64,000 nt of DNA from Chloroflexota bacterium (GTDB lineage: Bacteria; Chloroflexota; Anaerolineae; J036; Brachytrichaceae), in assembly GCA_030550095.1 (NCBI GenBank), contig JAUQQA010000002.1, forward strand, positions 1 through 64,000. Reading direction: 5' to 3'. A program made the position numbers and the translations under genes. The notes below the pieces were generated by a model. The model did not search any database. It was not told where the DNA came from and saw nothing but the letters and a program-made list of their open reading frames with translations. The first letter of the stretch is position 1; each line of letters begins with the position of its first letter. This document shows, piece after piece, positions 34,883 through 39,070 of the stretch.

Positions 34883-34995
34883 GGCTCACACTCCTAATTG
34901 CGACAGCAGTGTAACGAAAGCGCACCCGCGCATGAGGCAACTGTGAGCCAAGCGTGCCTGTCGCGCTGCGTTCGACGCAACCCGGCGCGTTGTGT

Positions 34996-35001
34996 TATAC
35001 T
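34996..35001 (+). promoter_or_regulatory. -10 element of the tRNA gene
   Basis: TATACT, 15 nt before the mature 5' end of the tRNA. Only a weak -35 is visible near 34971 (TTCGAC). Confidence 0.5.
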
Positions 35002-35016
35002 TTTTACACCTAGCGC

Positions 35017-35089
35017 GCTACCTTAGCTCAATCGGCAGAGCACTCGCTTCGTAAGCGAGGGGTTTCGGGTTCGACTCCCGAAGGTAGCT
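35017..35089 (+). tRNA. tRNA-Thr (anticodon CGT)
   Basis: The 73-nt cloverleaf is complete: acceptor GCTACCT (35017-35023) pairs with AGGTAGC (35082-35088) with discriminator T 35089. D arm holds AGCTCAATCGGCAGAGCA. The anticodon stem CTCGC/GCGAG encloses loop TTCGTAA with anticodon CGT at 35050-35052, reading ACG. The T arm is TCGGG-TTCGACT-CCCGA. CCA is not encoded, so the CCA-adding enzyme in this window would be needed. Confidence 0.95.
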
Positions 35090-35112
35090 TCCCCTAAGCT
35101 CCCCAAAGTTAT

Positions 35113-35141
35113 TTCACCCTCGTCCACGGCAGTGATACAAT
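35113..35141 (+). promoter_or_regulatory. Promoter of rpsO (and perhaps pnp)
   Basis: TTCACC (35113-35118) and TACAAT (35136-35141) with 17 bp between them. The leader of about 40 nt carries GAGGAAG just before ATG 35188. Confidence 0.5.
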
Positions 35142-35187
35142 TTGCGACGCATCACGCACCAAAGCAAGCGAGGTTTCTGAGGAAGCA

Positions 35188-35457
35188 ATGGCGCTTAGCA
35201 AAAAGGAAAAGGCGGAGATCATCGCCAAATTCGCAGTCGCCCCTGGGGATACCGGGTCCTCGGCGGTGCAAGTGGCGCTGCTTACGCAGCGCATCAACCG
35301 GCTGAACGAACACCTCAAGGTGCACAAGCACGACCGTAGCTCGCGTTACGGCTTGCTCAAGCTGGTGGGTCAGCGGCGCGCGCACCTTAAGTATCTCGCC
35401 GCCAAAGACCCCCAAGCTTACCGTGAGCTGCTGGTGAAGCTTGGCTTGAGGCGGTAG
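35188..35457 (+). CDS. rpsO: 30S ribosomal protein S15
   Basis: 89 residues, exact family length. The hallmarks are [44 protein letters not shown], with HKHD and LLxLVxxRRxxLxYL as 16S rRNA contacts. S15 nucleates the 30S platform. The gene is followed by an intrinsic terminator and then by pnp, the classic bacterial rpsO-pnp order. Confidence 0.97.
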
Positions 35458-35467
35458 TTGCGAACAG

Positions 35468-35498
35468 TCAGCCCTGTCGCTTTGGCAGGGCTGATTTG
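35468..35498 (+). terminator. Intrinsic terminator after rpsO
   Basis: TCAGCCCTG (35468-35476) pairs with CAGGGCTGA (35486-35494), a 9-bp stem with a 9-nt loop, followed by TTTGT. Probably partial, allowing some read-through into pnp. Confidence 0.7.
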
Positions 35499-35509
35499 TC
35501 ATGCGTGCC

Positions 35510-35596
35510 CTGCGGAGAACGCGCGTAGAAGTTAGAGGATTGCTGACTTCCAGCCGCGAAGTCGGCAGCCCTCTAACCTCTAGCCGTTCTCCGCAG
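35510..35596 (+). promoter_or_regulatory. Long near-perfect hairpin in the pnp leader
   Basis: The lower stem is 12 bp, CTGCGGAGAACG (35510-35521) with CGTTCTCCGCAG (35585-35596). After a small internal loop, 35526-35550 pairs with 35558-35582 with two mismatches and two G-U pairs, closed by a 7-nt loop (35551-35557). About 37 bp of near-continuous duplex lies between rpsO and pnp. This is the location and form of the RNase III-processed pnp leader in E. coli. A mobile palindromic repeat is the alternative. Confidence 0.7.
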
Positions 35597-35648
35597 TGGA
35601 AGATGCTCAACAAGCTTTGCTCATCCCTTTCAACCGCTGTTGGAGAAC

Positions 35649-37952
35649 ATGGAACAGATTCAGACGCTTTCCCCCTCCATTCCGCTGATCGTGCCGGCTG
35701 AGAAGCCGGTGAAGCACGTTTACGAGGCGTACGTCGGTCAACACAAGATCATCATCGAGACTGGTCACGTGGCGAAGCAGGCGGGTGGCGCTGTCACCGC
35801 GCGCATGGGCGACACGATGGTGCTCGCCACAGCGACGATGGCGAAGACACCGCGCCAGGGCATTGACTTCTTCCCGCTCAACGTTGAATACGAAGAGCGG
35901 CTCTACGCTGCCGGGCGCATCCCTGGCAGCTTCTTCCGCCGCGAGGGTCGCCCGCCCGAAGCCGCGATCCTCATCGCGCGCCTGGTTGATCGCCCCTTGC
36001 GCCCCCTCTTCCCTGAGGACCTGCGCAACGACGTGCAGGTGATCATCACCGCGCTCTCGCACGACCAAATCAACGACATTGACGTGCTCGCGGTGAACGC
36101 CGCCTCTGCCGCGCTGATCATCAGCGACGTGCCCTTCACCACGCCCGTCGGCGCGGTGCGCATCGGACTCATCAACGGTGAGCTGGTGATTAACCCCACC
36201 ATCCCTGAGATGGAGTACAGCGACCTCGACTTGCGCGTGGCGGGCACCCGCGACGCCATCGTGATGGTGGAGTGTGGTGCCAACGAAGTGGACGAGGCGA
36301 CCATGGTGCGCGCGCTCAAGCTGGCGCACGAGAGCATCCAGGACTTCATCGCCATGCAAGAGCGCATGCGCGCGGAGATCGGCAAGCCGAAAGCTGATTA
36401 CCCGCGCTTTGGACGCGACGAAGCGCTCAACCAGCGCGTCCGCCAAGCGCTCGGCACGCGCATCCAAGAGACATTCGCGCTCGAGCTGGAGAAGGCGGAA
36501 CGCCAAGCCATGCTCGACGCGATCGAGGGCGAAATCCTCGCGCAGGTGCAATCCGAGGATGAAGCGGTGAACCCCGACGAGGTGCACGCCGTGATCAAAG
36601 ACGTGACCAGCGAGGTCGTCCGCCGCCGCATCCTTACTGAGGGCATCCGTCCCGATGGGCGCACGCCCAAGCAAATTCGCCCCATCTGGATCGAGGTTGG
36701 CGATCACCTCGCGCCGCGCGCGCATGGCGTCGGCTTGTTCACGCGCGGCGAAACGCAAGTGCTCTCGGTGGTCACGCTCGGCAGCAAGAGCGACGCGCAG
36801 CCACTCGACGGCTTGCACCCCGTCGAGGAGAAGCGCTACATGCACCATTACAACTTCCCGCCCTACAGCACTGGCGAGGTGAAAATGCTGCGCGGCAGCA
36901 GCCGCCGCGAGATCGGGCACAGCGCTTTGGCAGAGCGTGCCTTGCTCGCTGTGCTCCCCAGCGAGGATGAGTTCCCTTACACCATCCGCGTCGTCAGCGA
37001 GGTGCTCTCCTCGAACGGCTCCACCTCCATGGCGAGCGTGTGCGGCAGCACCCTCGCGCTGATGGATGCAGGCGTGCCCATCAAGGCGCCTGTCGCTGGC
37101 ATCGCTATGGGCCTGGTGACGCACCCCGACGGCATCGAGCACGGCTACGCCATCCTCAGCGACATCCAAGGCATCGAGGACCACATCGGCGACATGGACT
37201 TCAAGGTCGCTGGTACGCGCAAGGGCATCACAGCGCTGCAAATGGACATCAAAATCTCAGGGCTAACGCCTGAGATCCTCGCCGAAGCGCTTGAGCAAGC
37301 GCGCGAAGGGCGCTTGGCGATCCTCGACCGCATGATGGAAGTGATCAGCGAGCCGCGCCCCACGCTCAAGCCGCACGCGCCACGCATCTTGATCATGACG
37401 ATTGACCCCGAGAAGATCGGCGCGCTGATCGGCCCCGGCGGCAAGACCGTGCGCTCGATCCAAGACCAGACCGGCGCTGAGATCGAAATCCAAGAGGACG
37501 GTCGCGTCTTCATCGTCACGCCCGATGCCCAGGCAGCGGAACGCGCCCGTGAACTGGTCGCCTCGTTCACAGGCACGGTCGAGCTGGGCGGCATTTACAC
37601 AGGGCGCGTCACGCGCGTGACCGAGTTCGGCGCGTTTGTGGAGATCTTCCCGCGCGTCGAGGGCATGGTGCACGTCTCGCAGCTTGCAGAGCGCCCCGTG
37701 CGCCGCGTCGAAGATGTCGTGCGCCCTGGACAGGAGATCACCGTGATGGTGATCGCCAACGACAACGGCAAGCTGCGCCTGAGCCGCCGCGCTGTGCTAG
37801 AGGGCATGACGCTCGAAGAAGCCCAAGCGGCTGACCGAGGCTTGCAGCGTCGCACCACGAACGCACCCGCCTTCGGCCCTCATGCCGCCCGCGCGGCAAA
37901 AGCCGCGCCCCGCGCAACAGGGCGCCCGCTCCCCAGCAAAAAGCAACGCTGA
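35649..37952 (+). CDS. pnp: Polyribonucleotide nucleotidyltransferase (PNPase)
   Basis: 767 residues. Domain order: RNase PH-1 (about 25-155), helical linker, RNase PH-2 (about 330-475, HHYNFPPYSTGEVKMLRGSSRREIGHSALAERAL), KH (about 575-630 with LIGPGGKTVRSIQ) and S1 (about 640-710, YTGRVTRVTEFGAFVEIF). It degrades RNA 3' to 5' using phosphate, usually in the degradosome, and makes heteropolymeric tails. ATG 35649 is preceded by TTGGAG; an in-frame TTG at 35640 is less likely. A Pro/Ala/Arg-rich tail ends the chain. Confidence 0.96.
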   Translation: MEQIQTLSPSIPLIVPAEKPVKHVYEAYVGQHKIIIETGHVAKQAGGAVTARMGDTMVLATATMAKTPRQGIDFFPLNVEYEERLYAAGRIPGSFFRREGRPPEAAILIARLVDRPLRPLFPEDLRNDVQVIITALSHDQINDIDVLAVNAASAALIISDVPFTTPVGAVRIGLINGELVINPTIPEMEYSDLDLRVAGTRDAIVMVECGANEVDEATMVRALKLAHESIQDFIAMQERMRAEIGKPKADYPRFGRDEALNQRVRQALGTRIQETFALELEKAERQAMLDAIEGEILAQVQSEDEAVNPDEVHAVIKDVTSEVVRRRILTEGIRPDGRTPKQIRPIWIEVGDHLAPRAHGVGLFTRGETQVLSVVTLGSKSDAQPLDGLHPVEEKRYMHHYNFPPYSTGEVKMLRGSSRREIGHSALAERALLAVLPSEDEFPYTIRVVSEVLSSNGSTSMASVCGSTLALMDAGVPIKAPVAGIAMGLVTHPDGIEHGYAILSDIQGIEDHIGDMDFKVAGTRKGITALQMDIKISGLTPEILAEALEQAREGRLAILDRMMEVISEPRPTLKPHAPRILIMTIDPEKIGALIGPGGKTVRSIQDQTGAEIEIQEDGRVFIVTPDAQAAERARELVASFTGTVELGGIYTGRVTRVTEFGAFVEIFPRVEGMVHVSQLAERPVRRVEDVVRPGQEITVMVIANDNGKLRLSRRAVLEGMTLEEAQAADRGLQRRTTNAPAFGPHAARAAKAAPRATGRPLPSKKQR

Positions 37953-38137: not shown

Positions 38138-39070
38138 GTGAGCAACGCAACGCTTGAGCTTCAGCAAGAGCAGCAGATGAGCGCTGCACAGCAACCTGCA
38201 CCAAACAACGGCACGATGCTGCGCCTAGAGGATTTGAAGCCGCGCATGGGCTTCAAAGGCAAGGTGGTGCACGTCGAGCTTGGCGGTGCTTTTGTGGACA
38301 TCGGCGGCATCATCGGCTTCCTGCATATCTCGCAAGTCGTCACAAGCGACGGCAAGCCGATCCTGCGCCTTGCCGACGTTTTGAAGCCCGGTAGCGAAGT
38401 CCAGGTGTATGTAAAGCGCGTCAACCTCAAGCAGAAGCGCGTTGACCTCACCATGCACCAGCCACCAGCCTATGGCTGGGACAACCTGCAAGTGGGCATG
38501 GTGATCCAAAACGCCAAGGTAGTCTCCGTTGAAAGCTTCGGCGTGTTTGTGGATTTTGACGGCCCCAAGCACGGCCTGGTGCCGTTCAACCTCATGCCCA
38601 AGGACTTCCGCCCCAAAGTGGGCGATGTGCTCGAGAAGCTGTGGGTGATCGAGGTGGACGAGCCCAGGCGCCGCATCGGACTTACCATGGTCGAGCCACC
38701 AGCGCTGCCATGGGACCGCATCCGCAAAGGTGAGAAATACACTGGCACCGTCACGCGCGTGGAACGCAACGCTGCCTATGTGGACATCGGCGCTGAGCGC
38801 GAGGGTGTGGTGCGCGCCTCCTCGCTCGGCGTCACTTACGCCGACATGCGCGCCATCGTCTCGCAGGGCGAACAAGTTACCGTGAAAGTGCTGCGCGCTG
38901 ACCCATCGCGGCGCATCCTTGAGCTTGCGCTCGACGGCGTTGACGCGAAAGACTTGGTGCTCTCTTCAGGTCCAGAGGAGGAGCTTAGCCCCTTTGCCGT
39001 GGCGCTCCAGCGCGCTCAACAACTGAAGCGCAGCCAAGAAGCAACCAAGGCTGAACAAGCCAACAACTAA
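38138..39070 (+). CDS. Protein with three S1 RNA-binding domains (RpsA-like)
   Basis: 310 residues. A short Gln/Ala-rich N-terminus precedes three S1 OB-folds: FKGKVVHVELGGAFVDIGGIIGFLHISQ (about 38-105), IQNAKVVSVESFGVFVDFDGPKHGLVPF (about 122-190) and YTGTVTRVERNAAYVDIGAEREGVVRAS (about 199-270), then a Gln/Ala/Lys tail. It is shorter than enterobacterial S1 (six domains) and similar to the three- or four-domain bacterial S1-like proteins. It likely helps mRNA bind the 30S subunit. GTG 38138 is preceded by GAGAGGAG; ATG 38177 is an alternative. Lies between pnp and lysS. Confidence 0.85.
   Translation: MSNATLELQQEQQMSAAQQPAPNNGTMLRLEDLKPRMGFKGKVVHVELGGAFVDIGGIIGFLHISQVVTSDGKPILRLADVLKPGSEVQVYVKRVNLKQKRVDLTMHQPPAYGWDNLQVGMVIQNAKVVSVESFGVFVDFDGPKHGLVPFNLMPKDFRPKVGDVLEKLWVIEVDEPRRRIGLTMVEPPALPWDRIRKGEKYTGTVTRVERNAAYVDIGAEREGVVRASSLGVTYADMRAIVSQGEQVTVKVLRADPSRRILELALDGVDAKDLVLSSGPEEELSPFAVALQRAQQLKRSQEATKAEQANN

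Follow-up and report, generated by a model that had tools for sequence, protein, structure and literature searches.

A conserved, covarying hairpin with a central mismatch in the pnp leader of the Chloroflexota

The rpsO-pnp locus

The window, that is the whole stretch of DNA that was analysed, comprises 64,000 nucleotides of a genome assembled from a Chloroflexota bacterium (class Anaerolineae, family Brachytrichaceae; contig JAUQQA010000002.1, positions 1 to 64,000). Within it rpsO and pnp are neighbours on the same strand, with a spacer of 191 nt between them. The features of the locus are as follows.

35188 to 35457, plus strand: rpsO, ribosomal protein S15 (89 aa), the upstream gene of the pair (open reading frame; PF00312, E=3.9e-32)
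35467 to 35495, plus strand: short 12-bp hairpin immediately 3' of rpsO (folding)
35510 to 35596, plus strand: pnp-leader hairpin, approximately 37 to 44 bp according to how many of the outer pairs are included (sequence and folding)
35526 to 35538, plus strand: conserved core, 5' strand, UAGA-A-GUUAGAGG (from alignment A1 and the counts of pairs)
35530, plus strand: A of the conserved central mismatch, on the 5' side and facing C 35578 (mismatch here or at most 3 positions away in 64 of 65 distinct cores)
35570 to 35582, plus strand: conserved core, 3' strand, CCUCUAAC-C-UCUA (from alignment A1 and the counts of pairs)
35578, plus strand: C of the conserved central mismatch, on the 3' side and facing A 35530 (sequence and core comparison)
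35649 to 37952, plus strand: pnp, polynucleotide phosphorylase (PNPase; 767 aa), with two RNase PH domains, KH and S1 (open reading frame; PF01138, PF03725, PF03726, PF00013, PF00575)

The pnp gene, which is likely to be the one regulated by the leader hairpin, begins with an ATG at 35649 and stops at 37952, and the nearest named records encoding PNPase come from MAGs of Anaerolineae and other Chloroflexi. The product of the gene 3' of pnp (38180 to 39070) has three S1 RNA-binding domains.

The short hairpin at 35467 to 35495 is probably a 3'-end or terminator-like hairpin of rpsO with a weak U-tract. Many relatives also have a similar short hairpin 3' of rpsO, but a strict scan for U-tracts was positive in only 17 of 51 and found none at the hairpin of the window. 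The long hairpin follows about 15 nt past the short one, leaving no space for a promoter between them, and promoter-like matches near the locus are found only upstream of rpsO. The long hairpin is therefore probably carried on transcripts that read through from rpsO.

Structure of the long hairpin

The long hairpin starts 53 nt past the rpsO stop and ends 52 nt short of the pnp ATG, with weaker outer pairs extending it to about 35496 to 35613. Its lower stem is a perfect helix of 12 bp (35510-35521 with 35585-35596), above which the 5' strand carries two single-nucleotide bulges, at 35522 and 35525, separated by 2 bp. Then come 4 bp (35526-35529/35579-35582), an A.C mismatch (35530.35578), 8 bp (35531-35538/35570-35577), a second A.C mismatch (35539.35569) and about 11 to 12 bp up to a small loop. 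RNAfold gives -79.5 kcal/mol for 35480 to 35640, compared with -51.1 +/- 4.2 kcal/mol in dinucleotide shuffles (z = -6.8), and none of 200 shuffles was equally stable. A preliminary description of this DNA had placed a hairpin of roughly 37 bp between the two genes. The location, the size and the perfect lower stem all hold; the two mismatches that it gave for the upper stem are both A.C pairs, but the two 5' bulges had been overlooked.

Distribution in the Chloroflexota

Sixty genomes were searched, and rpsO was found in 55 of them, the window's genome included; these represent about 30 families. A homologous hairpin is present in 52 of these 55 rpsO-pnp spacers of the class Anaerolineae, a count that includes one locus (L042) in which the hairpin lies at the contig end after rpsO; both L038 and L058 carry the element. 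The three remaining spacers (L030, L037 and L039) lack it. The strict motif finder used matches 4.7% of shuffled sequences where a looser threshold matched 14%. The same finder had no match in the Firmicutes, cyanobacterial and Dormibacterota loci. A covariance model of the element, R1, matches directly upstream of pnp in loci that were left out of its building, with scores of up to 49 bits. The preliminary description had regarded a lack of hairpins in related rpsO-pnp spacers as the outcome that would speak against its reading, and such a lack is not what was found.

Outside the class, the element is again situated between rpsO and pnp in Herpetosiphon llansteffanensis (L110, class Chloroflexia) and in two more genomes of the phylum (L203 and L204). 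Its presence in at least two classes indicates that the element is old within the Chloroflexota.

Long, repeat-like extra inserts are present at the hairpin apex in three spacers (L010, L013 and L043, of genomes G023, G021 and G044), and it seems that the loop region tolerates insertion while the core stays intact. In the window's family, loci L010 to L016 have a second hairpin of roughly 19 to 26 bp, downstream of the long one and ahead of the pnp start; this is not seen in the window.

Compensatory changes in the core

The core takes two forms. In most of the class it reads YAGG-A-AUUGGrGAGUG / CACUCyCCAGU-C-CCUR, and in the window's family UAGA-U/A-GUUAGAGG / CCUCUAAC-C-UCUA. These differ pair by pair, from G-C to A-U at positions -1 and +4 and from A-U to G-C at +1. 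In alignment A1, both sides have changed in 12 of the 16 core pairs, and the cells changed on both sides number 168 against 58 in shuffles. Core cells are paired in 92.6% of cases against 77% in shuffles, although pairing was one criterion in choosing the core anchors and arms, which inflates the paired percentage and, to a lesser extent, the switches of pair type. When the partners are slid by one column, pairing is at most 47%. RNAalifold recovers the same stem without being given it.

Mapped on a PNPase tree of 51 genomes, the paired positions changed from one Watson-Crick pair type to another 48 times, and thus the covariation is not one inherited event. The compensatory changes for which the preliminary description had advised looking in the pnp leaders of relatives are therefore present, and they exceed both the shuffled and the slid controls; the element is a conserved structured RNA. 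At paired sites G.U outnumbers A.C by 130 to 29. The rule for placing the anchors took pairing into account and biases this ratio in part; the excess points to the plus-strand RNA, rather than the DNA, as what keeps the pairing.

The central mismatch

Of 65 distinct cores, 64 have kept a helix defect near the middle of the stem, in a count that anchors on flanking letters and in which pairing at the central position was rewarded, not punished. The defect is at position 0 in 54 cores, at +1 in six, at -3 in three and at -1 in one. The only core without it (L200) is that of a dispersed palindrome and is not beside pnp. At position 0 the mismatch takes nine forms, A.C being the most frequent (36), followed by U.C (8), and with G.A, U.U, A.G, G.G, A.A, C.C and C.U also found. 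The median stem is 40 bp long, with medians of 18 bp below and 20 bp above the mismatch. An RNase III site is expected to have a central irregularity with about 20 bp on either side. If the mismatch is conserved as such while its bases are free to vary, the element would be a clean natural case of a structural defect guiding cleavage.

Proposed function

A single RNase III gene is present in the genome (TIGR02191, E=2e-76; contig 49, 25.7 to 26.4 kb), the enzyme being found in 56 of the 60 genomes surveyed, and the PNPase of the window has the KH and S1 domains (PF00013 and PF00575). The favoured reading, which has a reasonably good chance of being correct, is that the hairpin is an undescribed pnp-leader element of the Chloroflexota that acts in cis in the rpsO-pnp transcript, through a cut by RNase III near the mismatch and feedback by PNPase. 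Through the hairpin the cell could probably cut the rpsO-pnp message and thereby keep its PNPase, an RNA-degrading enzyme, in check.

RNase III would bind the helix of about 40 bp centred on the conserved defect and cut near the central mismatch, in the vicinity of 35530/35578. The cut would separate the rpsO mRNA from the pnp mRNA and leave a short duplex at the 5' end of the latter. PNPase could then attack the new 3' end and strip the upstream strand, in the way that Jarrige et al. (2001, cited in PMC2864571) reportedly described for E. coli, where PNPase removes this strand after the RNase III cut. Its protection lost, the pnp message would decay, and an excess of PNPase would lower its own synthesis. 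The cleavage, the position of the cut and the feedback are all predicted by analogy with E. coli and Streptomyces. In both of these, pnp is controlled by an RNase III cut in the hairpin between rpsO and pnp: in S. coelicolor the cuts flank an internal loop and lower the pnp mRNA (PMC10126417), and the E. coli pnp mRNA is destabilised by RNase III (PMC2834685).

Against this reading, the hairpin and the enzyme do not always occur together. The three spacers without the element belong to genomes that do have RNase III (G010, G036 and G041), and two fairly complete genomes in which RNase III was not detected (G035 and G048) have kept the hairpin. G035 is a 100% complete MAG whose family members have an RNase III gene, and in its hairpin (L026) A pairs with U where the mismatch normally lies, the defect having moved to -3, a single case. 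On a possible tie between loss of RNase III and loss of the mismatch the two genomes point in different ways: the mismatch is displaced in G035, but G048 keeps it (L053).

Retention of the hairpin in these two genomes would be accounted for if it were instead the site of a dedicated RNA-binding protein, such as PNPase itself through KH/S1, S15 or another factor, controlling pnp translation or stability without an RNase III cut. The near-invariant letters of the core (AGG-A-AUUGG / CCAGU-C-CCU) and the fixed mismatch resemble protein recognition; the core sequence is conserved beyond what is usually held necessary for RNase III, and thus another protein could be its reader. Such a site is nevertheless unlikely, since RNase III substrates usually look like this, with a near-perfect stem of about 40 bp and a central defect, and since the core letters switch coordinately between the window's family and the rest of the class.

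E. coli has a small RNA, SraG, that is antisense to the corresponding spacer (RF00082, detected in the E. coli locus L140), and the hairpin could by comparison be the body of an antisense or small RNA, as its source or its target. This is very improbable in view of the plus-strand preference for G.U over A.C, which speaks against a minus-strand RNA, and of the minus strand of 34900 to 35700, which is without a promoter match. There is slightly less again to recommend a transcription terminator or attenuator of the rpsO-pnp operon: this is a stable intergenic hairpin downstream of a gene, but its stem is much longer than that of a terminator and rpsO already has a separate short hairpin at its 3' end. 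The lower stem is followed by GTGGAAGATG... without a U-run, so the hairpin is not an intrinsic terminator, and the scan for intrinsic terminators had no match at the hairpin, where TGGAAGATG comes after the lower stem.

Copy number and the dispersed palindromes

The genome, at 2.35 Mb and 97% complete, was searched for further copies of the element, as the preliminary description had proposed. BLAST returned only the element with its own inverted self-match and two 14-nt chance matches, and the covariance model had no further sites in this genome, leaving the pnp leader as the single place. The element is thus unique there, and the many copies with the same ends that would have marked a dispersed repeat did not appear.

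In several larger genomes of the phylum, R1 matches tens of extra sites. Tens of dispersed near-perfect palindromes per genome are present in G084, G121, G126, G065, G111, G096, G092, G140, G141, G016, G198 and G301; they are exemplified by L141, L169, L173 to L192, L194 and L195, and their places are unrelated, yet they match the pnp-hairpin model. Those examined are composed of tandem 7-nt units (GATTGGA, GATTAGA, GGGATTG and alike). Among the best 30 loci of the class, 27 adjoin rpsO or pnp and three are elsewhere, two of these three (L141 and L169) being of the 7-nt kind.

The dispersed palindromes resemble the pnp element in being hairpins with units like GATTGGA/TCTAACC that match its model. 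They differ from it in occurring tens of times per genome with no fixed gene, in their near-perfect tandem period of 7 (period-7 identity 0.81; pnp elements 0.43) and in having no conserved mismatch in those examined. In the pnp element, 7-nt periodicity is confined to the core and is pronounced only in one arm, the 3' arm, of the consensus of the window's family (z = 5.2), the flanks not being periodic. The dispersed palindromes are reminiscent of the STRR heptamers of cyanobacteria. It is conceivable, if decidedly improbable, that the mismatch in its near-invariant core is a phylum-specific recognition code for the Chloroflexota RNase III or a partner protein, with the 7-nt palindromes read genome-wide by the same machinery and the pnp element domesticated from them or evolved towards them.

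The matches of the model to dozens of dispersed palindromes in larger genomes, and the partial 7-nt periodicity of the core in the window's family, are the grounds for regarding the hairpin as a mobile palindromic repeat (REP/MITE-like) inserted by chance between rpsO and pnp, the alternative offered in the preliminary description; this fails and is the least probable reading of all, given a single copy in this genome, the same position with compensatory changes in 52 of 55 relatives, and dispersed repeats that are, by contrast, near-perfect tandem 7-nt units.

Comparison with known systems

The element is a covarying RNA of Chloroflexota pnp leaders of which neither Rfam 15 nor the papers searched have a description. 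A scan of the window and ten Chloroflexota loci against Rfam 15 at loose thresholds gave only miRNA-like chance matches to the long stem, SraG (RF00082) had no match in the window, and a literature search for a Chloroflexota pnp leader found nothing. Actino-pnp (RF01688) had no match in the ten loci, and its best score in the genome is 14.1 bits, at another place, against a curated cut-off of 47.7. The element represents a new family of a known kind, its layout and the precedents suggesting an RNase III site for the control of PNPase.

The E. coli pnp leader likewise has a long stem between rpsO and pnp, near the pnp start and after a short post-rpsO hairpin, and in both cases the genome has genes for RNase III and for a KH/S1 PNPase. 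The stem in E. coli is irregular at several points, whereas the Chloroflexota stem, for which cleavage is predicted, is marked by a single conserved mismatch within a defined core. Since the E. coli leader (L140) does not match R1 up to E=5, and since the actinobacterial motif has no match in this genome, the resemblance to E. coli is one of layout, by convergence or by divergence beyond recognition. The preliminary description had suggested convergence or ancient origin for the shared arrangement; antiquity is supported within the Chloroflexota, but there is no recognisable homology to the E. coli leader.

The S. coelicolor hairpin, which we assume to be one element with Actino-pnp, is similar in being a pnp-leader structure conserved in one phylum. 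Its internal loop is [4/4], compared with the 1x1 mismatch of the Chloroflexota element, and it is the nearest precedent for a helix defect as guide to the cut site (PMC10126417).

Both enterobacteria and Streptomyces are documented to control pnp through a cleaved rpsO-pnp hairpin, and their hairpins look unrelated. A third version in the Chloroflexota, well delimited and strongly conserved, suggests that this feedback either arose repeatedly or is very old. The covarying consensus defines a new RNA family and carries a specific prediction, that the cut falls at or beside the central mismatch.
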